NCBI GenBank assembly: GCA_028713125.1
Contig: JAQTOU010000002.1
Coordinates: 610,505 to 674,504 of the forward strand
Origin: Elusimicrobiales bacterium
Lineage (GTDB): Bacteria > Elusimicrobiota > Elusimicrobia > Elusimicrobiales > UBA9959
Direction: 5' to 3'
DNA: 64,000 nt
The translations under genes were made by a program, and so were the position numbers. Shown here one piece after another: positions 53,812-64,000 of the stretch (position 1 is its first letter; the number at the start of each line of letters is the position of its first letter). A model generated the notes under the pieces. It searched no databases, had not been told where the DNA came from, and was given only the letters and a program-made list of their open reading frames with translations.

Positions 53812-54426
53812 TTATTTGTCCAGCGGTATAAGCAGCTTCAGGCCTTTTTCGAGGCGGTGCGGGTTGGAAAGCTGCGGGTTGGCCGCCCAGATCTTCTCCC
53901 ACTGTGAAAAATCGCCGTAATATTTGACAGCTATTTCGGCCATGGTCTCGCCTTCGCGGACGATGTGTACGGAGTAGCGACCCCCCTTGGCGCAGGGTCC
54001 GTCGCCGAAGAGGCACTCGAAGACCGCGTTAGTTTCCGCGGTGGCGTCCAGCGCGGCCGTGGAGATCATTATGGAGGGGGTAGGCGCGTTCTCTTCAAGC
54101 TCGGCCAGGAGGCCCAGCAGTTTGAGGTCCCGGTTCCCGGGCAGCAGCTCTTCCGCCCTGGCAAGCGCCGCGCGGGCCTGCGCGTACTGGCCCTGCTGTA
54201 TATCCCCCTTGCCTTTTATCGCCAGGCAGTAGCCCAGTATTTCCTTCGCCCTGGAGTCCTTCGGGTTTTCTTTTATGGCCGCCGAAAAAAAAGTTATGGC
54301 GCTGTCCACTCTGCCTGATAGAAAAAAGCCGGCCCCTTTGTCCAGGGCGTCCTGCGCGCACAGCGGCCCCGCGGCTGAAAGCGTCAGGAACAGGAGGGCC
54401 GCGGAGAGTTTAATTCTTAGGCGCAC
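53812..54426 (-). CDS. LysM protein with TPR-like repeats
   Basis: About 204 residues from GTG 54426, which has GGAGG just upstream and begins a signal peptide (RLRIKLSAALLFLTLSAAGPLCA). TPR-like helices (~25-125) are followed by a C-terminal LysM domain (YSVHIVREGETMAEIAVKYYG ... NPHRLEKGLKLLIP), which binds peptidoglycan. The start overlaps the upstream PorV-like gene end, so the two are coupled. An ATG at 54471 would precede the signal and is less likely. Confidence 0.83.
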   Translation of the reverse strand: MRLRIKLSAALLFLTLSAAGPLCAQDALDKGAGFFLSGRVDSAITFFSAAIKENPKDSRAKEILGYCLAIKGKGDIQQGQYAQARAALARAEELLPGNRDLKLLGLLAELEENAPTPSIMISTAALDATAETNAVFECLFGDGPCAKGGRYSVHIVREGETMAEIAVKYYGDFSQWEKIWAANPQLSNPHRLEKGLKLLIPLDK

Positions 54427-55582
54427 CGGCCCCTCCTCCGAGTTTCTGCCTGGCTTCGGTGACGTCCACACCCAGCGGGGCGAATTTGTCCACGATGCGC
54501 TGCAGTATAAGGGCCTGCTCGTCCTTGTTGAGCTTTTCGGCAGCCGCTTTGGCGTAGAACCACTGCATGGTTTCCTTATAGAGGTCGGCGGCGCTGCGCT
54601 TTATCGTTTTCCCGCCTTTTAGCACCGTAATCCCTTCGTCCTCCGGCCTTGCCGAGAGCGAGTCGAATTTAATTTTCAGGCTGAGGCGGTGCGTCATTCC
54701 CAGGTCGCCGTAGGGGCTGAGCGCGTAATCCAGGCCTATGGCGCCGGCTTCGGCGCCGAAGCCCAGCGAGATGGCCGACATAGCGCCGAGGTAGCTCATG
54801 GCGGAGGTCTTGAAGCCGGCGCGCAGGGTAAGGCGGACGCCTTTTATGGGCGAGGGATAGAGATATTCTCCGCCGAAGTGGAGGCTGAGCGAGTCGTCGA
54901 AAGGCAGGCTGACGTCCGAGGTCAGCAGCAGGTTTTTGCTGTACTGCAGGGCGGCTCCGGCCCGGAGCGACATCGGCAGGGGGCAGGGCGTCTTTTCAAG
55001 GGTCAGGCCGGTGCCAAGGTTCTTAAGGGTCGCGCCAAGTTTCAGCTTGGGGGACATTTCGTACACCGCCCCGGCGTCCAGGGCGAAGGCCTGGGCGCTG
55101 GCGCTTTCTATCCGCTCCCTGATCACCTTGAAATTAGCGCCGACGGCGAGCTTTGGCTTGAGGCGCCGGGCATAGGAAAAGATCAGCGCCAGGTCGCTCG
55201 CGCTGTAGAAACCCTCGGTGTAGCCGTATTTGTTCCCGCGCTCTATGTCCCCGGTGCTCATCGAACCTACGCCCGCGCCTATTACGTAGGCGGGGCTGCG
55301 CCTTAAGGCGAAAGCGGCGTGTTCGGCATTGGTCCCGTCAAGCCAGATATTGTGACCGAAGGTTTCCTGGAGGCGCTTGATATAATTCAGGCCGGCGGGG
55401 TTCCAGTACAGGGCGTCCACGTCGTCGGCCGCGCCGGTGAAGGCGTCGCCCATTGCGGCCGGCCTGGCCCCCCAGCCCACCCGCAGGAAAGCAGCGGAGG
55501 AAGTCCCGGCGGCCCGCGCGCCGGCCGCGGCGGAGAGCAGGGCCGCCAGCAGGAGCAAAATGGTTAAGGGCTTCATTTGCAT
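54410..55582 (-). CDS. PorV/PorQ-like outer-membrane protein
   Basis: A 390-residue protein with a signal peptide (LTILLLLAALLSAAAGARA) and the family motif VGWGARPAAMGDAFTGAADDVDALYWNPAGL. The rest is a beta-barrel, and the last ~70 residues are a helical extension. It starts 5 bp after the beta-propeller/FlgD-domain gene, the same arrangement as at 40520-47288. Confidence 0.9.
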   Translation of the reverse strand: MQMKPLTILLLLAALLSAAAGARAAGTSSAAFLRVGWGARPAAMGDAFTGAADDVDALYWNPAGLNYIKRLQETFGHNIWLDGTNAEHAAFALRRSPAYVIGAGVGSMSTGDIERGNKYGYTEGFYSASDLALIFSYARRLKPKLAVGANFKVIRERIESASAQAFALDAGAVYEMSPKLKLGATLKNLGTGLTLEKTPCPLPMSLRAGAALQYSKNLLLTSDVSLPFDDSLSLHFGGEYLYPSPIKGVRLTLRAGFKTSAMSYLGAMSAISLGFGAEAGAIGLDYALSPYGDLGMTHRLSLKIKFDSLSARPEDEGITVLKGGKTIKRSAADLYKETMQWFYAKAAAEKLNKDEQALILQRIVDKFAPLGVDVTEARQKLGGGAGAPKN

Positions 55583-55586
55583 AGGG

Positions 55587-57731
55587 CTAACGGATCACGG
55601 AGAACTTGCCTTTTTTGGGCTCCCCGCCCGCTTTTATAAAGTAAAGATAGACGCCGGTGGCCACTTTACCGCCCGAGACGGTCTTGGTATCCCAGAGATA
55701 GTTGCCGGAACTGTCCGCGGTCGCCGACTTCTGAAAAACAAGCTGGCCGGCCAGGTCCACTATCGTCAGCTTGAAGGCCTGGTTCGCGCCGAGCCCGGCG
55801 AAAACAATTCCCTCTCCAAGGGTGGATTGGTCGAAGCTTCCGCCGCTGCCGGGGCGATATGGATTCGGATATACCTTAGCGGGGATGCCGCTGCCGCCGG
55901 CGCCGCCGCCTCCGCCTCCTCCGCCCCCGCTGCCTATGGCTTCTTTAACTACGGCGTATTTAACATTTATGGACTTGGAGAAGCCTGTGACGCTCTTTGC
56001 CGAGGTATTGACCAAAGATGTCACTCCGACCCAGCCCAGGACATCGTCCCAGTAGGCCAGCGAGAGCGAGGCGGCGGGGTAGGTCCCCAGGTCAGCGTCG
56101 CTGTAGCGCAGCTTTATGGAAGCGTTCACGGCCGGGGCGGAGGAGTTGGTCACTGAAAAATAAAGCGCTTCGCCAACCTGGCGCAGGTCTCCGGCGGCTA
56201 CCGGCACGGTATAGATAGTTATGGTTTCCTGGTAAGGGAAAGAGCCGGCCGGGACGTCGACCGTCACCTCCCCGAGTTTCGTCATGGCGTTTATCGTATC
56301 GCCAAGCCCGGCGGCTATGGTCCTGCGCATCCTGGTGTACGCCAGGGTGGTGCTGGCCGCGGCTTCGCCGTTCGCATTTGTCACGGTGACCGTGGTCACG
56401 CCGAGGATCACGGCCGTGGACGGAGCGACGGAGAGCGTTATCTGGCCGGCCGACAGCGAGAGGGCGCCGGTGGAAATGGCGGTGTCCTGGAAGGAAACGG
56501 CGCTGTCAGACAGGAAGCCTTTGCCCGTGAACGTGACATTCGAGGTCTCGCCGATGTAGAGCGGAGAAACGGCCGTTATTTTCGGCGAGGCGTTATATTT
56601 AATGGTGAAATAATCGGAGTCGAGGCCGTTGTTGCTCTGGCCGGTTACTATGGCGTTGTCGTCTGCGTCCACCGCCACCGCGTTGGAAATGTCGGTAGAC
56701 CCTCCGTCGTAGGACGCCGTGGAGATGACGTTGAGGTTCTGGTCGTATTTTATGGTGAAGTAGTTATTGGCCGATTGCCCGGTAACTATTATGTTGTCGC
56801 TGCCGTCGACGGCCACGCCGGTGGGAATATCCGTGCCGCCGCTGTCGTACACCGCGGAGGAGATCAGCTGGAGAAAACTGTTGTATTTCAGGGTGCAGTA
56901 GTTCTGGGTAGTCCCATCGTACTGCCTGCCCGTGACTATGATGTCGTTCCCGCTGTCCACCGCCAGGCCGGTGGCCCTGTCGTCGGCTCCGGCTGCGCCG
57001 TCCAGGGTGGCTTCGTAGAGCTTCCGCAGGTTGTTGTCGTATTTTACCACCAGGAAATTATTGCTGGCGGCCAGGGTGAAGCCGGCCGCTATCACGTTGT
57101 CGTTGTGGTCTATGGCAAGGGCGGAAGCCTCGTCGGCGTCTCCGCCGTCGTAGTAGGCGGTGGTGAGAGCGTTGAGCTCGGGGCTGTACTTTATGACGTG
57201 GAAATTTTTATTACTGGCCACTTCGGTGTAGCCGGCCACGAATATGCTGTTCTGGCTGTCGGTCTTTACGGCGGCCCCGGAGTCGAACCCGGCCCCGTCG
57301 TATACCGCGGAGGAGAGCAGCGCGGCGAAGTCCGGGCTGTATTTCAGGACCAGGTTATCCATGTTCCCGGAAGAGTTCATCTCTTCCCCTGCCACGATGA
57401 TCCGCCCCTGTCCGTCCATGGCTATGCTTTTAGCCTTGCCGCCGGTGAAGTTGGGGGTGAAGAACTGCTGCGCGGAGGGGCTGAGCACCAGGGTCTTGCT
57501 GTACTTCTGGGAGAGATATTTGGTGTTGTTGCTGCTGTTCCCCGTGAGGAAAATATTCCCGCCCGCGTCGGCGGAGAGGGCGTAGGCTATGTCGGCCGAG
57601 CCGGAGTCATAGGCGGCCGAGGAAAGGACTATCATCGACGGCGCGGCGGCGGAGGCCGCCGCGCAGCAGGCGATGATAAGTCCCGTAATGAATATTTTCC
57701 CCTTCCTCATCCTTTTCCCTCTCCCGTTCAC
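55587..57731 (-). CDS. SBBP beta-propeller surface protein with FlgD-like end
   Basis: A 714-residue exported protein. After the signal peptide come about seven SBBP-type repeats (~25-395, pattern YDSG..D.A.A.A.D...NI.VTG). An IPT/TIG domain (ITAVSPLYIGETSNVTFTGKGF) covers ~395-475. A further beta domain leads to a glycine run (~613-625) and the FlgD-like C-terminal domain (KVYPNPYRPGSGG ... GVYLYFIKAGG). It is probably a surface adhesin or filament-associated protein carried by the PorV-like neighbour. Confidence 0.88.
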   Translation of the reverse strand: MNGRGKRMRKGKIFITGLIIACCAAASAAAPSMIVLSSAAYDSGSADIAYALSADAGGNIFLTGNSSNNTKYLSQKYSKTLVLSPSAQQFFTPNFTGGKAKSIAMDGQGRIIVAGEEMNSSGNMDNLVLKYSPDFAALLSSAVYDGAGFDSGAAVKTDSQNSIFVAGYTEVASNKNFHVIKYSPELNALTTAYYDGGDADEASALAIDHNDNVIAAGFTLAASNNFLVVKYDNNLRKLYEATLDGAAGADDRATGLAVDSGNDIIVTGRQYDGTTQNYCTLKYNSFLQLISSAVYDSGGTDIPTGVAVDGSDNIIVTGQSANNYFTIKYDQNLNVISTASYDGGSTDISNAVAVDADDNAIVTGQSNNGLDSDYFTIKYNASPKITAVSPLYIGETSNVTFTGKGFLSDSAVSFQDTAISTGALSLSAGQITLSVAPSTAVILGVTTVTVTNANGEAAASTTLAYTRMRRTIAAGLGDTINAMTKLGEVTVDVPAGSFPYQETITIYTVPVAAGDLRQVGEALYFSVTNSSAPAVNASIKLRYSDADLGTYPAASLSLAYWDDVLGWVGVTSLVNTSAKSVTGFSKSINVKYAVVKEAIGSGGGGGGGGGAGGSGIPAKVYPNPYRPGSGGSFDQSTLGEGIVFAGLGANQAFKLTIVDLAGQLVFQKSATADSSGNYLWDTKTVSGGKVATGVYLYFIKAGGEPKKGKFSVIR

Positions 57732-57761
57732 CGATCCTCGATTCCCGACTCCCGATTTTCT

Positions 57762-58139
57762 TCAGCCGTTCGCCGGGTAAGCCTGCGCGAGCAGCTTGAC
57801 GCGCTTTATAAGTTCGTCGTTTTCGTAGGGTTTCGTCAGGTAATCGTCGGCGCCGCGCTCCAGGCCCTGCGCGCGCTCGCTCATGCCTTTGCGGGCGGTG
57901 AGGAGCATGACCGGCATTTCTTTGAAGCGCTCGTCGGCGCGGATGAGGTCCAGGAGCTCGAGGCCGTCCATCTCCGGCATATTGATGTCCAGCACGGCCA
58001 TGTCCGCCCCGCTTTTTTTCAGGGCCTCCCAGGCCAATTTCCCGTTGGGGAAAGATGAAACGTTATAGCCGGCGGAACTGAGCACCATTTCCGTCAGGTC
58101 CCTGAGTTCGTCGTCATCGTCCGCGATAAGTATCCTCAT
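57762..58139 (-). CDS. CheY-like single-domain response regulator
   Basis: A 125-residue receiver domain alone: acidic pocket Asp8-Asp10 (IADDDD), phospho-acceptor Asp51 (VLDINMPEMDG), Thr81 (LLTA) and Lys103 (TKPY). It has no output domain. The best inference from its place right after the stator genes is that it binds the motor, as CheY binds FliM; no kinase is nearby. Confidence 0.9.
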   Translation of the reverse strand: MRILIADDDDELRDLTEMVLSSAGYNVSSFPNGKLAWEALKKSGADMAVLDINMPEMDGLELLDLIRADERFKEMPVMLLTARKGMSERAQGLERGADDYLTKPYENDELIKRVKLLAQAYPANG

Positions 58140-58167
58140 ATTATAATTCTCCTGGTTCGGTCTGGAC

Positions 58168-58821
58168 TTACTGTGCTGCCTTAATGCCGGCGCCCTGGTC
58201 CCTGGCCATGACTTCCGCCAGAGGGGCGGACGGGGCGCTTTTTTTGCGTATCAAGATCTCGACCCTGCGGTTGGCCGCCTGCTGCTCCGGGGTGTCGTTC
58301 GGGCCGAGAGGGCTGAATTCCCCGTGGCCGGACGCCACGAAAAGGTCCGGGCTGTTCCCCTCTTTTACGAGGAAATCTATGACGCTGATGGCGCGGTACA
58401 AGGAAAGCTCCCAGTTAGAGGAGAAATCCCCGCCGTAGAACACGGGGGCATTGTCCGTGTGCCCGTCCACCGTCACCAGGTAGCGGCTGTCGAGTTTCTT
58501 TATGCTGGCCGCGAATTTCTGCATGGTAGGGAGCGCCGAGTCCTTAAGTTTAGCCACGCTCAGGTCAAATACCACCGAAGAGGGCAGGGTGACCTTTATC
58601 CCGTCATCGAGCACTTCCACTTTCACGTCCTCCATTTCTTTCAGGTCTTCCTTTACGGTCTGGGCTATGCTCTCGTTGCGCTCCTCGTTCTTTTTTTTCA
58701 GCCTTTCGGAATAGTCGGCGTATTCTATAAGGAAGAAAATGCACAGGATCGTCATCACGCCGATATACGGCATGATGTAGGCGCTCATGGCTCCCGACAT
58801 GTCCAGCGATTTTTTTTTCAT
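58168..58821 (-). CDS. MotB-like protein lacking the proton-binding Asp
   Basis: A 217-residue protein with one N-terminal span (SAYIMPYIGVMTILCIFFLIEY) and a C-terminal OmpA/MotB peptidoglycan-binding domain (VDGHTDNAPV ... RAISVIDFLVKEG ... NRRVEILI). Where MotB has Y-x-D at the start of its span, this protein has YIMPYIG, with no acidic residue inside the span. It may form a mixed stator with the true MotB or be a structural anchor. It starts 9 bp after the MotB gene. Confidence 0.85.
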   Translation of the reverse strand: MKKKSLDMSGAMSAYIMPYIGVMTILCIFFLIEYADYSERLKKKNEERNESIAQTVKEDLKEMEDVKVEVLDDGIKVTLPSSVVFDLSVAKLKDSALPTMQKFAASIKKLDSRYLVTVDGHTDNAPVFYGGDFSSNWELSLYRAISVIDFLVKEGNSPDLFVASGHGEFSPLGPNDTPEQQAANRRVEILIRKKSAPSAPLAEVMARDQGAGIKAAQ

Positions 58822-58830
58822 CCTTGTCGA

Positions 58831-59523
58831 TTACTTTTTCAGCACCAGCTTGATCTCTATCCGCCTGTTTTTGGCGCGGTTCGCGTCGCTGTCGTTAGGG
58901 GCCGCCGGCATGAACTCTCCGTAGGCGCTGGCCGAGAGCCGCTCCGGGGGAAGGAGCCTTTCCCGGGTAAAGAACTGCAGCACCTGGAGCGAGCGGGCGG
59001 CCGAGAGCTCCCTGTTCGAATAATAGGGGCCGAGCCCCGTGGAGCGCGCCATGGCCAGCTGCCAGCGCTTAAGGCCGGGGGGCGCGGTCTGGGTTATCGG
59101 GACGTCGTCTGTGTATCCTTCGACCGTCAGTATATAGCGCGTGGGCGCAAGCGTATGGCCGACATTCGTCAGCACTTCCCGCGCAGCGTCCTTCAGTTTC
59201 GCCTGGCCCGATTCGAAAAGCACCTGCTCCGGGAGAACGATGCGCAGGTCCTTGTCGCTCAATTTAACTCCGGAAACACCCGCTATTTTGGCGAGCTTGT
59301 TCCCGGTCTCCGTCATGGCCTTCGCCGCGGCCTCTTTGTGGTAGATGGCGGAGGAAACCCCTTTCATATAATCCCTGAACTCCTGCTGGGTCATGCCTTT
59401 CTGATACGCTATCAGCACGCTGGCGAACAGCATCATGAAAAAAAGGGCCTCGTTCGTGATGAGGTCGCTGTAGACCGTCATCCAGACGACCGGGACGTTC
59501 AGCTTCTTTTTCTTTACGGCCAT
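58831..59523 (-). CDS. motB: MotB-like stator protein
   Basis: A 230-residue stator subunit. The span VYSDLITNEALFFMMLFASVL carries the conserved aspartate (Asp20) that takes up protons in MotB. The OmpA-type peptidoglycan-binding domain is VEGYTDDVPI ... RSLQVLQFFTRERL ... NRRIEIKLVLKK. It lies 24 bp after the MotA gene. Confidence 0.9.
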   Translation of the reverse strand: MAVKKKKLNVPVVWMTVYSDLITNEALFFMMLFASVLIAYQKGMTQQEFRDYMKGVSSAIYHKEAAAKAMTETGNKLAKIAGVSGVKLSDKDLRIVLPEQVLFESGQAKLKDAAREVLTNVGHTLAPTRYILTVEGYTDDVPITQTAPPGLKRWQLAMARSTGLGPYYSNRELSAARSLQVLQFFTRERLLPPERLSASAYGEFMPAAPNDSDANRAKNRRIEIKLVLKK

Positions 59524-59547
59524 TCTTTAATTGGCGGCGCGAGCGCC

Positions 59548-60306
59548 TTATTCCTCTTTCCTGAGATGGGCGGCCACGTGCTTCTCCAGCTTGCGGCGCA
59601 GCACGAGAGGGGGCTCCTCTTTCTTGAAGGCCAGCAGCCCGAGCAGGATGAGCTGCTTGCCGAGCAGTTCTTTATTGCTGTAGTTCTCAAGCTTGCCGGC
59701 CGTGGGCAGCGCTATGAAGTTCGCGACGAAGATGCCGTAGAAGGTCGTAACGATGGCCACGGTCATGGCGGCGCCCATGGCCTTGGGGCTGTCCAGGTAG
59801 CGAAGGACGCCGAGGATGCCGATGAGGGTTCCGAGCAGGCCGTAAACCGGGCCGTAGCCGCCCGCGGCCGCGAAGGCCTTTTGCACCTGCTGGTGCCGCT
59901 CCATCATGAATTCCATGTCTTTCTCCATGGTTTCCTTTATGGCGTCCTCGTCCCATTCGCTCAGTATCAGCTTGACACCGGCTTTAAGGAACTTATCGTC
60001 TTTGACGGTGTCCTCGGCCAGTGAGTCGACCCCCTTGGACTTGACCGAGCCGGCGAGCTCGCAGAGCCGCTCGATCACGGCCCGGGGCTTTGTGATCTTC
60101 TGCGGGAAGAACGTGAGGAAAAGAGAGCGCGGGGTGTCTTTCATCACGTCCAGCGGGAACGTCATCAGGGTGGAGGCTATAGTTCCCCCGACTACCAGGA
60201 TAAAAGAGGGTTTATCCCAGAGAAGCCCCATGATGTCTCCGGCGGCCATGGAATACCAAACGCAGCCTACGCCGAGAAGCAGTCCTAGTATAGTTGAAAG
60301 ATCCAC
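59548..60306 (-). CDS. motA: MotA-like stator protein
   Basis: A 252-residue inner-membrane protein with four spans, two at the N-terminus (~4-25, ~32-50) and two at ~150-200 (GGYGPVYGLLGTLIGILGVL, VAIVTTFYGIFVANFIALP). The cytoplasmic loop between is the MotA/PomA type. It forms the ion channel with MotB and pushes on a FliG-type rotor, here probably the fusion protein encoded just upstream. Confidence 0.93.
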   Translation of the reverse strand: MDLSTILGLLLGVGCVWYSMAAGDIMGLLWDKPSFILVVGGTIASTLMTFPLDVMKDTPRSLFLTFFPQKITKPRAVIERLCELAGSVKSKGVDSLAEDTVKDDKFLKAGVKLILSEWDEDAIKETMEKDMEFMMERHQQVQKAFAAAGGYGPVYGLLGTLIGILGVLRYLDSPKAMGAAMTVAIVTTFYGIFVANFIALPTAGKLENYSNKELLGKQLILLGLLAFKKEEPPLVLRRKLEKHVAAHLRKEE

Positions 60307-60340
60307 TTTATGTCTCCTTTATCTTTTCCACCGTTTCGTC

Positions 60341-61879
60341 TTAAGCGGGGCTCTGTTTTTCCTCGGGGGCGTCCGCCGGGCCGGCGGCCGGGATATCAGC
60401 GGAAGCCTCGACCGCCCTCTGCTCGGATTCGGACGGCTTTTTTACGTCGGCCAGGGGAAGTATCAGGCCTTTTGCCGCAAGCGCGGTCACAGCGTGAAGT
60501 ATCGTAAGCTCGGAGTCGTTGCTGTCCCCGGTCATCAGCATGTTCTGCATGCGCGCCGCCACCAGGTCGCGGATGGCCGGCCCCAGGGCTTCGGCAAAAG
60601 CTTCGGCCGTGTTCTTATCGCAGTTCTTGAGGCAGCGGGCGAAAGATTCCGCGCCGGCCTTGCGGAAGACCCTGCGGATGGACGTCTCGTCGTAGCGCAG
60701 CAGGTCCTCGAACCTGAAGAAGCGGGTCGCAACGTTGGCCGCGAAGGCCTCGTCCCGTTCCTTTATGAAGGAGAGCGTGCTGTCCTGCGACTTTTTATCC
60801 ATTATCTGCATCAGGTTGCCGAGGCGCGCTTCGCCGCCGAAACTGCCCGCCATCTTGTCCTTGATGCGGCTCAGCAGGTCCTTTATCTTTTCCGGCTCGA
60901 CGAACTCGCGCTTGAGGTACTGCGCCAGCACCTCTTCCATCTTGTACCTGGGGATGGCCGCGAAGGCCAGCTTCTGAGGTATGCGCTGGACCACCTTGGC
61001 TATGACTTCAGGGGACTCGTCGTGAAGGATGAGCATCAGGTCGTCCACGTTATCCTTGGTGACGTATTTATCGAGCGGCATATTCTCGCCCGAATCGAAA
61101 GTGAGCACCGACGCCGCGCCGCCGCCGCCGGCGATGTTCAGCGCGCCGGTCATGGTCGTTTCATTCCCGATGTCGTCCGTCCCGCCTCCGGCAAGCGTAA
61201 TTTCGCCTCCTCCCCCGCCTTTGACCTCAACTGCTTTCCCCCCCGCCGCGGCCATAGCCGCCAGGTTCTCGTTAAGGCGCTTCAGGAAACCCCTGAACGG
61301 CCCGTAGAGGAAGACGGCCAGAACCAGCAGACAGACGAGTACCACTATGGCGGAGATATCTATCGCGCGTGAGGCCTTCTCCGCGGGCGCGCTCTCCAGC
61401 GAGATAGTGTCACCCAGTTCGGAGTCAAGGCCCATTGCGTCCGAAACCAGCTTTTTGATCTTTGTTTCCTGGTCCTTGGTGACCTGCTTTCCTACGATGA
61501 TCCAGATGTTCACGCTGGCTACGCCCAGGCGCACCTGCTTCTTGGCCGCCTCCGCGGCTTTTATCGCCGTGTTATCTTTTGTCATCGAGGTCGCGGCCGG
61601 CACCCCGGGCAGGATCAAGTCTTCTTTTTCGTCCCATTTTCTTACTCCGCCCTGGTCCGCCTCGGTTTTTTTTACCTGCACGTTTACTTTCGCCGCTACC
61701 GCGATATCCTTGGTGTTAAGGTAGGAAGACAGCATGGAGCGAAGTCTTTCCTCTATCTGGGCCTCGAGCGCCACCTTCCCGCGCAGGGCGTCGACAGACT
61801 GGCCCGCGGCGGGTCTGTAAGCTGCAAGCGGCGCGACCGCGCACAGCAGCGCTATTGTAAAGTATTTTTTTATCTTCAT
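60341..61879 (-). CDS. FliF-FliG-like fusion, candidate rotor
   Basis: A 512-residue protein. Residues 1-26 are a signal peptide or first span. Residues ~30-165 are periplasmic, ending VNIWIIVGKQVTKDQETKIKKLV, like the C-terminal part of FliF/YscJ. A span lies at ~175-193, then a Gly-rich linker (~214-255). Residues ~275-370 match the FliG middle domain (LHDESPEVIAKVVQRIP) and ~380-480 the FliG C-terminal, stator-facing domain (FFRFEDLLRYDETSIRRVF). In flagella these are two proteins; here one chain would make ring and rotor. The acidic patch after SIRR is altered (KAGAES). Confidence 0.83.
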   Translation of the reverse strand: MKIKKYFTIALLCAVAPLAAYRPAAGQSVDALRGKVALEAQIEERLRSMLSSYLNTKDIAVAAKVNVQVKKTEADQGGVRKWDEKEDLILPGVPAATSMTKDNTAIKAAEAAKKQVRLGVASVNIWIIVGKQVTKDQETKIKKLVSDAMGLDSELGDTISLESAPAEKASRAIDISAIVVLVCLLVLAVFLYGPFRGFLKRLNENLAAMAAAGGKAVEVKGGGGGEITLAGGGTDDIGNETTMTGALNIAGGGGAASVLTFDSGENMPLDKYVTKDNVDDLMLILHDESPEVIAKVVQRIPQKLAFAAIPRYKMEEVLAQYLKREFVEPEKIKDLLSRIKDKMAGSFGGEARLGNLMQIMDKKSQDSTLSFIKERDEAFAANVATRFFRFEDLLRYDETSIRRVFRKAGAESFARCLKNCDKNTAEAFAEALGPAIRDLVAARMQNMLMTGDSNDSELTILHAVTALAAKGLILPLADVKKPSESEQRAVEASADIPAAGPADAPEEKQSPA

Positions 61880-61949
61880 ATTTTCTCCGCCACGATAAAA
61901 TACGGCGGCGCCGGCGGGATAAATGTCCCGCCCGACGCTGCCGCCCCGC

Positions 61950-63602
61950 TTAATTCATCTTCATGAATGAGAGAACTTCCTTGTTGTTCGGGTCAAGTTC
62001 CAGAACCTTCTCCCAGTTCTTCTTCGCCACATCCTTCTTTTCCATGGCCCAGTAAGCCGAGCCCATGCGCGTGAGGGCCGGGATATTTCCCGGCTCCAGC
62101 TGGAGCACCCTCTGCAGGGTCCCTATTGCCTGTATGTAGCGGCCTGTCCTGATGAAATCCAGGGCGTCCTGCAGCAGCTGGTCAATGATCGTTATATCAG
62201 GGAGTATCCGCATCCCCGAGGCCGTCTCCGGGAACTCCCGCGCCACAATATTATACAACCTTGTCAGCGCGGTGTCTTTCGGCCATTTCTGGTGGGCGTA
62301 GGTGATATAAAGCACCGAGTCGGTGTTCCTGTCGAGGAAGCGGCTTACCGCCTTCCGGACCAGGTCGTCCTTGTCCGTCGGCGCCGTCGCGTCGGGGATT
62401 ATATCCGCGATGGCCGATGCCTTCGCGTACGAGTCCTTGACCTCCTGGTTCTTTATCAGTAGCTCGTCGGCTTTCTTGAAGTTCCTCTCGGCGTCCTTAT
62501 AGGCGCCGCGCTTCATGGCGGCCCCGGCCGTCAATATAAGCTGTTCAGCCCTGAGGATATCGCCCTTGGTAGGCTCGGTCCTGACCGGTTCAGCGGGCGT
62601 TCCGTCCCCCCCGCCGCCGGCGCCGCCTTTCCCGTCCTTCCCGTCCATCCTGCTTTCTTTGTTCTTCCTGTCGGCCATGGGGCCGCGCGCCTCTCCCCAG
62701 GCGACGACGACGCCCAGCTGGTGGGAGCCCATGGTCCCGGAAATGCCGCTCAGCGGGTAAACGAAGGAATAGTCCACGCGGTAGGCGCCGCCGTTATAGC
62801 CGAAGCCGGCCGAGGCCGAGCGGTAGTCGCGTGAGCCGAGGCTGAACCCGCCGCGGGCCTGCACGCGGCTTTTGAATTTTTCCGTCATCAGGGGAATTTC
62901 CGCCCCCGTCTTCAGGCGCAGGTCCGAGCCCGAAATTGCCAGGTCGAAGTCGAGGGTGAAAGCTTCGCGCTTGCGCGCCAGGGCCAGGCTTATTTTCCTG
63001 GACACTTTGTTGGGATATTTTATCCCCAGGTCCGGCTCGTTAGCGTTCTGTATGGAGAGGCCCAGGTCCATGGACGGCAGGCTGTAGATGACCCCGAGGT
63101 CTATCCCCATGGCCGATTTGCCCGTGGCGCTGGCCAGGACCGGGTTGACCGCGGTATATTCGTCGCTGCCGTAGGTAACCCCCATCCGGGCCAGCGCGAA
63201 GCCTATATATATATTTTCCTTTATCGGGCGGGCGTAGCCCAGCCTCATCCTGGACTCGCTGTAGAGGCTGTCCAGGCTTAAAGTGTCTATGGCAAAAGCG
63301 GCGTTGCCCCAGTATTTGCCGCCGAATACGACCGGGGCGCCGATGGCGAGGCCGCCGCGGGAGAGGGAGCTGCCGTCGGTCAGGCCCATGAATAACTTTT
63401 CCTGGGAGAGCACGGCTTCGTACCGGGTCATCCCGATGATGCCCGCGGGATTGTAAAAAATAGAAGAGAGGCCCTCGGTCTGGGCGGCGTAGGCCCCGGC
63501 CATGGCCGTGGCCCTGGCGCCGGAGTCGACGTCCTCGAAAGCGGCGCCGGCCGGCGCCGCCAGGAGGGCGGAGAGACATAGAGCTGAAATGATAGTCCTC
63601 AT
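61950..63602 (-). CDS. PorV-like barrel fused to TPR repeats
   Basis: About 550 residues from ATG 63602, where RTIISALCLSALLAAPAGAA is a signal peptide; an ATG at 63635 would precede it. Residues ~20-300 are a PorV/PorQ-like barrel (GARATAMAGAYAAQTEGLSSIFYNPAGI). A charged Gly-rich linker (~310-345) leads to TPR repeats (~355-550) ending KKNWEKVLELDPNNKEVLSFMKMN. It may link the outer membrane to the periplasmic face of the motor. Confidence 0.85.
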   Translation of the reverse strand: MRTIISALCLSALLAAPAGAAFEDVDSGARATAMAGAYAAQTEGLSSIFYNPAGIIGMTRYEAVLSQEKLFMGLTDGSSLSRGGLAIGAPVVFGGKYWGNAAFAIDTLSLDSLYSESRMRLGYARPIKENIYIGFALARMGVTYGSDEYTAVNPVLASATGKSAMGIDLGVIYSLPSMDLGLSIQNANEPDLGIKYPNKVSRKISLALARKREAFTLDFDLAISGSDLRLKTGAEIPLMTEKFKSRVQARGGFSLGSRDYRSASAGFGYNGGAYRVDYSFVYPLSGISGTMGSHQLGVVVAWGEARGPMADRKNKESRMDGKDGKGGAGGGGDGTPAEPVRTEPTKGDILRAEQLILTAGAAMKRGAYKDAERNFKKADELLIKNQEVKDSYAKASAIADIIPDATAPTDKDDLVRKAVSRFLDRNTDSVLYITYAHQKWPKDTALTRLYNIVAREFPETASGMRILPDITIIDQLLQDALDFIRTGRYIQAIGTLQRVLQLEPGNIPALTRMGSAYWAMEKKDVAKKNWEKVLELDPNNKEVLSFMKMN

Positions 63603-63631
63603 ACTTTTCCTGTTGCCGCGGTCTAGACAGG

Positions 63632-63982
63632 TCATTTCGCCACCACCACGGTGCCGGTGAGCACCTTGTCGGAGGCTTCGACCTGGTAAAGATAGACGCC
63701 GCCTTTTACGAAAGCGCCGTTCTGGTCCTTGCCGTTCCAGAACATCACGCCGGCGCTCTCGGACTCCAGGTTCCTGCGGACCAGGATGCCGGAGAGGTCG
63801 AAGATGCGGATGGTGACTTCGCCGGCGCCGGGATTGGCGAAGCGGAACCTCACCCGGTTAACGGCCGTATCCGGCACATTGGGGCTGAAGATGCGCTGCT
63901 CCACCTTGGTAAGGTTGAAGCCTGAAGCCAGCGGCGCGGCCAGCATTGCCGACATTGATAAGGCTGAAAGGATATTGCTCAT
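63632..63982 (-). CDS. Small exported protein made mostly of a FlgD-like domain
   Basis: A 116-residue protein: signal peptide (NILSALSMSAMLAAPLASG) then a FlgD/Ig-like domain (IRIFDLSGILVRRNLESES, VMFWNGKDQNGAFVKGGVYLYQV). In larger neighbours this domain is the C-terminal sorting module; here it is almost the whole protein. It is the first gene of the cluster in view; its promoter is outside the window. Confidence 0.85.
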   Translation of the reverse strand: MSNILSALSMSAMLAAPLASGFNLTKVEQRIFSPNVPDTAVNRVRFRFANPGAGEVTIRIFDLSGILVRRNLESESAGVMFWNGKDQNGAFVKGGVYLYQVEASDKVLTGTVVVAK

Positions 63983-64000
63983 AATTTTATCGTTTACTTC

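Follow-up and report, generated by a model that had tools for sequence, protein, structure and literature searches.

What would a flagellar-type rotor and its stators do in a bacterium that encodes no flagellum? This question is raised by a gene cluster in a 64,000-nucleotide stretch of Elusimicrobiota DNA (the window), for which a preliminary description named a FliF-FliG-like fusion, MotA, two MotB-like proteins and a CheY-like receiver. All of the named genes were found where it had placed them on the minus strand, with Pfam/NCBIfam domain matches. There is good support for reading the operon as a rotor-stator gene system. We consider it reasonably probable that it encodes a stripped, flagellum-derived and flagellum-independent rotary motor whose task is to drive a giant adhesin of the outer membrane or to load it.

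The operon and the search for a flagellum

The cluster is part of a single tight operon of 11 genes in which no gap exceeds 70 bp and whose window part spans 53812-63982 on the minus strand, as do all genes described below. It extends past the cluster first described, downstream to 53812, with genes for a propeller protein, a PorV family protein and a TPR-LysM protein. Upstream, the first operon gene lies beyond the window edge and encodes a giant surface protein of 6,821 aa. Only its 3′ end falls within the window (63994..64000, stop codon at 63994), and the gene runs on to contig position C15:694963. In the stitched contig, the identity of which to the window was checked, it is a single ORF of 6,821 codons without an inner stop.

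The preliminary description saw no flagellar genes in 64 kb, and this can be widened to the whole host genome, an Elusimicrobiota assembly of 3.48 Mb in 39 contigs that is 100% complete. Searches of this genome for the FlhA export gate (PF00771), flagellin (PF00669), the FliM/FliN switch (PF01052) and the FliF N-terminal YscJ_FliF domain (PF01514) gave no match, with positive controls; the fusion itself starts at RBM3. A complete flagellar set elsewhere in the genome had been named as what would refute the motor proposal; with the tested markers absent, the proposal stands. The same absences argue against a true flagellum whose remaining genes escaped detection through divergence or through gaps in the assembly. 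Flagellated members of the phylum also speak against it, since in two of them ordinary separate FliF and FliG genes stand within a normal block of flagellar genes, and a third has a separate FliG-size gene adjoining a FliF-size ORF. Nothing was found in favor of a hidden flagellum, and we reject it as extremely improbable.

Rotor and stator proteins

The rotor gene (60341..61879) matches FliG_C (6e-12, above the cut-off) and YscJ_FliF_C (2e-4). Its product consists of a signal peptide, the FliF RBM3 domain (~30-165), a transmembrane helix (~173-195), a glycine-rich linker and the middle and C-terminal domains of FliG (~272-473). Profile comparison with the PDB identified FliG (1lkv, 1e-53) and FliF (6scn, 1e-5), and Foldseek with the structure model identified FliG (1e-8) and FliF RBM3 (8ftf, 2e-4), although the single-chain model itself is of low confidence (pLDDT 60). 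The claimed FliF-FliG fusion thus holds for the homology to both proteins, but the FliF share is only the C-terminal third (RBM3 and the second membrane helix). No FliG_N domain was found in the window's rotor protein. In one related genome (G082), a single open frame encodes both rotor and propeller protein.

The best conserved rotor domain is FliG_C, the part that meets MotA, which is present in 23 of 23 members. The charge pattern of E. coli FliG at R281, D288 and D289 is not kept in the window's rotor family, where these torque-helix residues are A, A and R, so the standard electrostatic interface is not kept there. Two other rotor types, A and B, retain acidic residues at the D288/D289 positions. 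In a FliG tree, 31 fusion proteins fall on one side with a support of 91/95, which is below star level, and the branches are long; this sequence grouping is only suggestive.

Judged by its sequence, MotA (59548..60306; MotA_ExbB 5e-25, PomA model 3e-53) is of the flagellar (PomA/MotA) type rather than the TolQ/ExbB type. A phmmer search matched PomA (8brd) over the full length at 2e-38 (profile 1e-69), and TolQ, ExbB and GldL were absent among the phmmer matches. At the positions equivalent to T158/T185/T186 the protein has all three threonines that mark Na+ stators, yet the position of A190 holds Ile, which is a proton-type trait (PMC10374538). It is followed by two MotB genes, MotB1 (58831..59523; OmpA 1e-13, MotB_plug 0.005) and MotB2 (58168..58821; OmpA 2e-13), both with an OmpA-type peptidoglycan-binding domain (PF00691) above the cut-off. 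The ion-carrying membrane Asp, which has been called universally conserved in MotB (PMC10374538), is present in MotB1 in 10 of 10 orthologues. In MotB2 the residue is Gly in the window and Gly or Ala in seven of nine orthologues, and in operons with two MotBs the second usually lacks this Asp, having G, A or N instead. A 468-aa "MotB" at another locus (L053) was rejected as a fusion, being an out-of-frame ORF extension. Downstream of MotB2 is a stand-alone CheY-like receiver (57762..58139; Response_reg 1e-30).

The altered torque residues, the Asp-less MotB2 and the low confidence of the rotor model are points against a rotating machine. The first two would suit a static ring, in which FliF/FliG are an anchoring scaffold and MotA/MotB act in a TolQR-like manner, exerting a pull on the outer membrane or sending it signals. 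We regard this as improbable, because MotA is closest to flagellar stators, both MotBs are peptidoglycan-binding, types A and B keep the acidic positions, and the MotA-meeting part of the rotor is its best conserved domain.

Compared with the flagellar motor, the rotary machine that we favor shares FliF RBM3, FliG middle and C-terminal domains, a flagellar-type MotA and a MotB that has the membrane Asp together with a peptidoglycan-binding domain. It differs in that FliF is cut to RBM3 and one membrane helix and is fused to a FliG without FliG_N, and in having no FliM/FliN, export gate or flagellin. It also has two MotBs, one without Asp, and shares its operon with PorV-like and giant surface proteins. 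The gliding motor of Myxococcus, AglRQS, likewise combines one MotA-like with two MotB-like proteins in a non-flagellar use of stators (PMC13104615 and, in part, general knowledge); here, in contrast, the stator is of the PomA/MotA type, has peptidoglycan-binding domains and comes with its own FliG rotor.

The giant protein and its possible outer-membrane partners

PorV-like proteins and proteins with FlgD-like tails were said to bracket the motor genes, and both types were indeed matched on either side. Upstream are a secreted protein of 116 aa (63632..63982; FlgD_ig 5.5e-7, above the cut-off) and a 561-aa fusion of a PorV-like barrel with a periplasmic TPR domain (61950..63635; PorV_fam 1e-8, TPR). 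The AlphaFold model of the latter has a barrel at 57-313 and TPRs at 357-560, and Foldseek returned porins as well as PorV of the T9SS translocon (6h3i_F, 2e-6). Downstream are a secreted beta-propeller-like protein of 714 aa (55587..57731; delta-60 repeats 4e-19), a PorV/PorQ family outer-membrane protein of 390 aa (54410..55582; NF033709, 160.6 bits, cut-off 90) and a 219-aa protein with TPR and LysM matches (53812..54471), which is also last in orthologous clusters. The giant protein contains Ig-like and invasin repeats (Big_3_5 at 1e-116 and 1e-76, Invasin_D3, DUF2341, FlgD_ig). Three products carry T9SS type A-like tails near the cut-off of 23 bits: the giant at its C-terminus (25.2 bits), the 116-aa protein (TIGR04183, 25.2 bits), which closely resembles the giant's tail, and the propeller protein (TIGR04183, 24.5 bits).

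A surface-movement or adhesin-driving motor had been put forward as the natural hypothesis. Our analysis supports it, and the hypothesis gains weight because the giant Ig-repeat gene heads the same operon. We infer ring assembly, rotation, coupling through PorV-TPR, the adhesin as cargo, and motility. Fusion subunits would form a small ring in the membrane, which each subunit would cross with a single helix; the RBM3 domains would make up a periplasmic ring and the FliG domains a cytoplasmic torque ring. Ion flow would power MotA and MotB1 (together with MotB2), held in place on the peptidoglycan, to push this ring. Its periplasmic side would contact the PorV-TPR protein and, through it, outer-membrane and surface partners. 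Such coupling could move the 6,821-aa adhesin with its Ig repeats, or export and load it, and the cell would thereby move over surfaces or actively attach. Cultured Elusimicrobiota have been reported to be non-motile (PMC11257099), which counts against a motor that drives motility.

The closest functional parallel is found in T9SS and gliding of Bacteroidota (GldLM, SprA, PorV, SprB), where a rotary machine powered by ions drives SprB, a protein of ~6,500 aa (PMC9127263, PMC13104615). Both systems have a giant surface protein of this size class, which in our operon is a predicted adhesin, the PorV family and type A-like tails, and the host genome encodes a distant SprA homologue of 1,796 aa (TIGR04189, 119.7 bits, E 7e-35). 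By this analogy, the operon probably shares its job with that system and would be functionally like SprB gliding. In contrast, its motor is homologous to FliG/MotAB and not GldLM, and the ring proposed as its rotor would sit in the membrane, unlike the outer GldK/N ring.

These likenesses also suggest that the motor could power secretion instead of movement, replacing GldLM in a T9SS-like pathway that exports tail-bearing giants via the SprA-like translocon and PorV partners. The PorV family protein, the tails and the SprA homologue, which occurs in 292 of 341 Elusimicrobiota genomes, would fit this, as would the lack of a GldM match in the 341 genomes. However, the control of that GldM search was silent, as was the one for SprA_N (PF14349), which gave no match, and the SprA homologue scores under the curated threshold of 200. 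Lineages that lack the motor also have the SprA-like protein, and export there requires no such motor. We consider secretion possible, though less probable than the adhesin-driving motor; the two overlap, since in Flavobacterium a single motor serves both purposes (PMC8986121).

Conservation and significance

Gene order in relatives was the other check proposed, and its loss would have spoken against the motor. Ten named Elusimicrobiota MAGs preserve the order, and one of these belongs to a different class from the window. An alignment-based scan of contigs (A2), whose reach is close relatives, gave 12 matches, from Elusimicrobiota MAGs and one bacterial MAG matching a genome of the phylum (G145). 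In every intact conserved locus, the first gene is a giant or large ORF, and full giants elsewhere measure ~6,084 aa (G154) and 5,966 aa (G327) by stitched coordinates; related loci without a neighboring giant gene also occur (e.g. G107). The host genome has five rotor loci of the window's kind, and a second one of these adjoins a 14,428-aa gene. Among 18 sampled loci of other lineages, 16 have MotA/MotB adjoining the rotor gene and the other two have PorV-TPR there. Across the phylum, FliG_C is found in 151 of 341 genomes (44%) and FlhA in only 5, so 147 genomes carry the rotor domain without the flagellar export gate.

A survey reported rotor proteins without filament proteins in non-motile species and suggested another function (PMC12199754), but it describes no system, fusion, operon or partner and does not mention Elusimicrobiota. 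Its finding that 11% of non-motile species keep some rotor genes would agree with a functionless leftover of a lost flagellum. In our case, substitutions fall mainly at third codon positions in each of the eight genes tested, indicating purifying selection. This, the operon kept across classes, the number of loci in the host and the spread of FliG_C contradict a leftover, and neither the fusion nor the partner genes are remnants, both being derived. We therefore reject this explanation as very improbable.

Three rotary machines powered by the proton-motive force were known as of a 2022 review: Fo ATP synthase, the flagellum and T9SS (PMC9127263). With a covalent FliF-FliG mini-rotor, a MotA stator, a two-type MotB axle with Asp in one MotB only and several specialized copies per cell, moving or loading giant adhesins in flagellum-less Elusimicrobiota, the system has about an even chance of representing an undescribed class of ion-driven rotary machines. 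Second MotBs that have repeatedly lost the Asp provide a natural experiment on the number of ion sites needed by a 5:2 stator. If our reading is correct, a flagellar torque core would be working without a flagellum, which bears on the use of half a flagellar motor, a question raised previously (PMC12199754). It would also represent a so far undescribed mechanism of moving or loading the bacterial surface, and Elusimicrobiota, described as non-motile and without flagellar machinery (PMC11257099), would become a candidate phylum for active surface movement.

Rotor fusion in a genome without the flagellar markers sought

The window corresponds to C15:610505-674504, and named relatives place it within Elusimicrobiota. 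The genes named in the preliminary description were all found on the minus strand where it had placed them, and curated models recognise each one. Its FliF-FliG fusion (60341-61879, minus strand) is real, but it does not contain a whole FliF; just the C-terminal third is present. The 512-aa product begins with a signal peptide, followed by a periplasmic domain, a single membrane helix, a linker rich in glycine and the FliG part. When a profile built from 23 relatives was run against the PDB, it matched FliG (1e-53), FliF (1e-5) and, weakly, SpoIIIAG. Among the same relatives, Pfam recognised FliG_C in all 23, FliG_M in 15, YscJ_FliF_C in 13 and FliG_N in just 3. An AlphaFold model of modest quality (mean pLDDT 60) showed a helix-strand-strand-helix-strand periplasmic domain, and Foldseek matched the two halves of the rotor to FliG (1e-8) and the FliF RBM3 ring (2e-4). 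By these Pfam, PDB-profile and Foldseek matches, the rotor combines FliG with the last third of FliF. Its FliG torque helix carries A, A and R at the R281, D288 and D289 positions, respectively; types A and B mostly retain acidic residues at the D288 and D289 positions.

The absence of flagellar genes, previously noted for the window, now extends to the entire genome (3.48 Mb, 39 contigs, completeness rating 100%). Searches for flagellin, FlhA, FliM/FliN and the N-terminal ring-building domain family of FliF, each with positive controls, found no match anywhere in it. Across 341 Elusimicrobiota genomes, FliG_C was present in 151 and FlhA in 5; the two occurred together in four (G110, G117, G166 and G187), so 147 genomes carry FliG_C but not FlhA. 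For genomes at least 90% complete with at most 5% contamination, the counts were 95/192 and 3/192. The flagellar FliG loci of G110 and G117 have an ordinary separate FliF and a 320-aa FliG, and this FliF still matches the FliF part of the fusion. In G166, a 355-aa FliG adjoins a 518-aa ORF that is FliF-like by size alone. A 2024 paper reported that flagellar machinery is absent from all Elusimicrobiota genomes and that isolates are non-motile (PMC11257099).

Operon extent and conservation

The operon is larger than first noted. Stitched contig pieces, verified to be identical to the window, placed its leading gene just past the window end. This giant gene is a single open frame of 6,821 codons (C15:674498-694963; stop codon at window position 63994) encoding an N-terminal DUF2341, many Ig-like Big_3_5 and invasin D3 repeats, and a FlgD_ig/T9SS type A-like C-terminal tail. 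Huge proteins are abundant in Elusimicrobiota (PMC11573180). The giant is followed by a small FlgD-tail protein, PorV-TPR (61950-63635), the rotor, MotA, MotB1 (58831-59523), MotB2, CheY, a propeller with a FlgD tail (55587-57731), PorV and a TPR-LysM gene that sets the downstream limit at 53812. Spacing among the 11 genes ranges from overlap to 70 bp.

A search of other genomes found this gene order, whole or in part, in 10 named MAG loci, and every intact locus is headed by a giant or large open frame. Among these ten is a MAG outside the window's class (G327, locus L060), which lacks CheY and whose rotor is 33-35% identical. In the genes compared, MotB2 included, changes at codon position 3 exceed those at positions 1 and 2. 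MotA and/or MotB lay within ~1.5 kb of distant rotor homologues at 16 of 18 sampled loci; the other two have PorV-TPR beside the rotor. In G082 (L050 7417-11151), rotor and propeller form one 1,244-codon frame, with MotA, MotB1, MotB2 and CheY absent between the two parts. This frame is a natural fusion linking rotor and propeller, although an assembly artefact or gene loss may instead account for it.

Stators and further motor loci

The window's MotA aligns with PomA over its full length (2e-38) and also with flagellar MotA; TolQ, ExbB and GldL were not among its PDB matches. The membrane Asp, described as universally conserved among stator families (PMC10374538), is retained in MotB1 of 10/10 orthologues. 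MotB2 retains its peptidoglycan-binding domain, but in 7/9 orthologues the Asp position is occupied by Gly (window genus) or Ala (G327). Loci L051 and L052, the exceptions, both have a divergent MotA, ~45% identical to the window's. At these loci (L051 15932-18083, L052 11511-13686), the MotA-MotB1-MotB2 cassette appears to have been exchanged for a divergent one, which at L051 is also relocated to the operon end. The second MotB has Asn at this position in L090 and L091, two further two-MotB operons in the phylum; both MotBs of system 3 in the window genome have Asp, as do all one-MotB operons checked. The second MotB of two-MotB operons has repeatedly lost the membrane Asp to G, A or N (window 58168-58821; L090 3883-4632; L091 11685-12476; L060 12884-13552). 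In the window family, this Asp-less MotB2 evolves under purifying selection.

Counting system 1 (the window operon), the genome has five FliG loci, and the other four also adjoin MotA/MotB. The second, on C35, encodes a 640-aa rotor with a TPR tail, a coiled-coil protein, MotA and MotB. Just upstream is a 14,428-codon frame (G000:C35:225920-269206; L072, L071, L065) with an Ig-like domain match and a weak FlgD-like tail, which we take to be among the larger bacterial open frames. Another FliG lies next to MotA/MotB at C11:308k. At the fourth motor locus (C11:8-20k; L043 8118-18339), one histidine kinase gene and three receiver genes come after MotA and MotB; the rotor gene, accompanied by two further kinase-like genes, is divergent from this side, as if the motor were under its own signalling control. 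On C26, a MotA-MotB pair is followed by a 308-aa FliG-like protein (L046 8865-9791) that lacks the FliF part; it has a membrane helix at the N terminus and matches FliG_M and FliG_C weakly. Type B operons encode a large Pro-rich protein (~730-930 aa) between rotor and MotA (L041 10626-13070, L082 7084-9621, L084 10862-13615, L086 4886-7381, L088 14052-16835). It is coiled-coil-like in those fully read, and the one from L041, the sole one scanned, had no Pfam match. It is possibly a cytoplasmic rotor partner that replaces FliM/FliN.

Possible export and movement of the giant

Our literature search, which covered few subscription papers or preprints, found no account of this FliFG-MotAB-giant system. 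Because that coverage was thin and other phyla lay outside a search confined to Elusimicrobiota, priority as a first description is not proven. The window genes are treated here as a variant form of the flagellar torque core, with a categorically new machine as the more novel reading.

The genome also encodes a 1,796-aa distant SprA/Sov homologue (L078 1592-6982, G000:C15 ~291.6-297.0 kb; 119.7 bits, cut-off 200). Similar matches in 292/341 genomes of Elusimicrobiota are a hint that a T9SS-like translocon may exist beyond Bacteroidota. Since such a homologue is present here and in most of the phylum, the giant may exit the cell by a T9SS-like route. The FliG motor may power this export, or instead the giant's later movement.

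A 2025 survey described rotor genes in non-motile species and suggested another function for them (PMC12199754). The nearest functional parallel of the proposed window motor is SprB, an adhesin of ~6,500 aa driven by the rotary T9SS (PMC9127263, PMC13104615). Most likely, the fusion subunits would assemble into a compact ring in the membrane, and MotA/MotB, anchored to peptidoglycan, would turn it. On its periplasmic side, the ring would then act on partners in the outer membrane by way of PorV-TPR, and through this coupling the giant adhesin, as cargo, would be moved or loaded.
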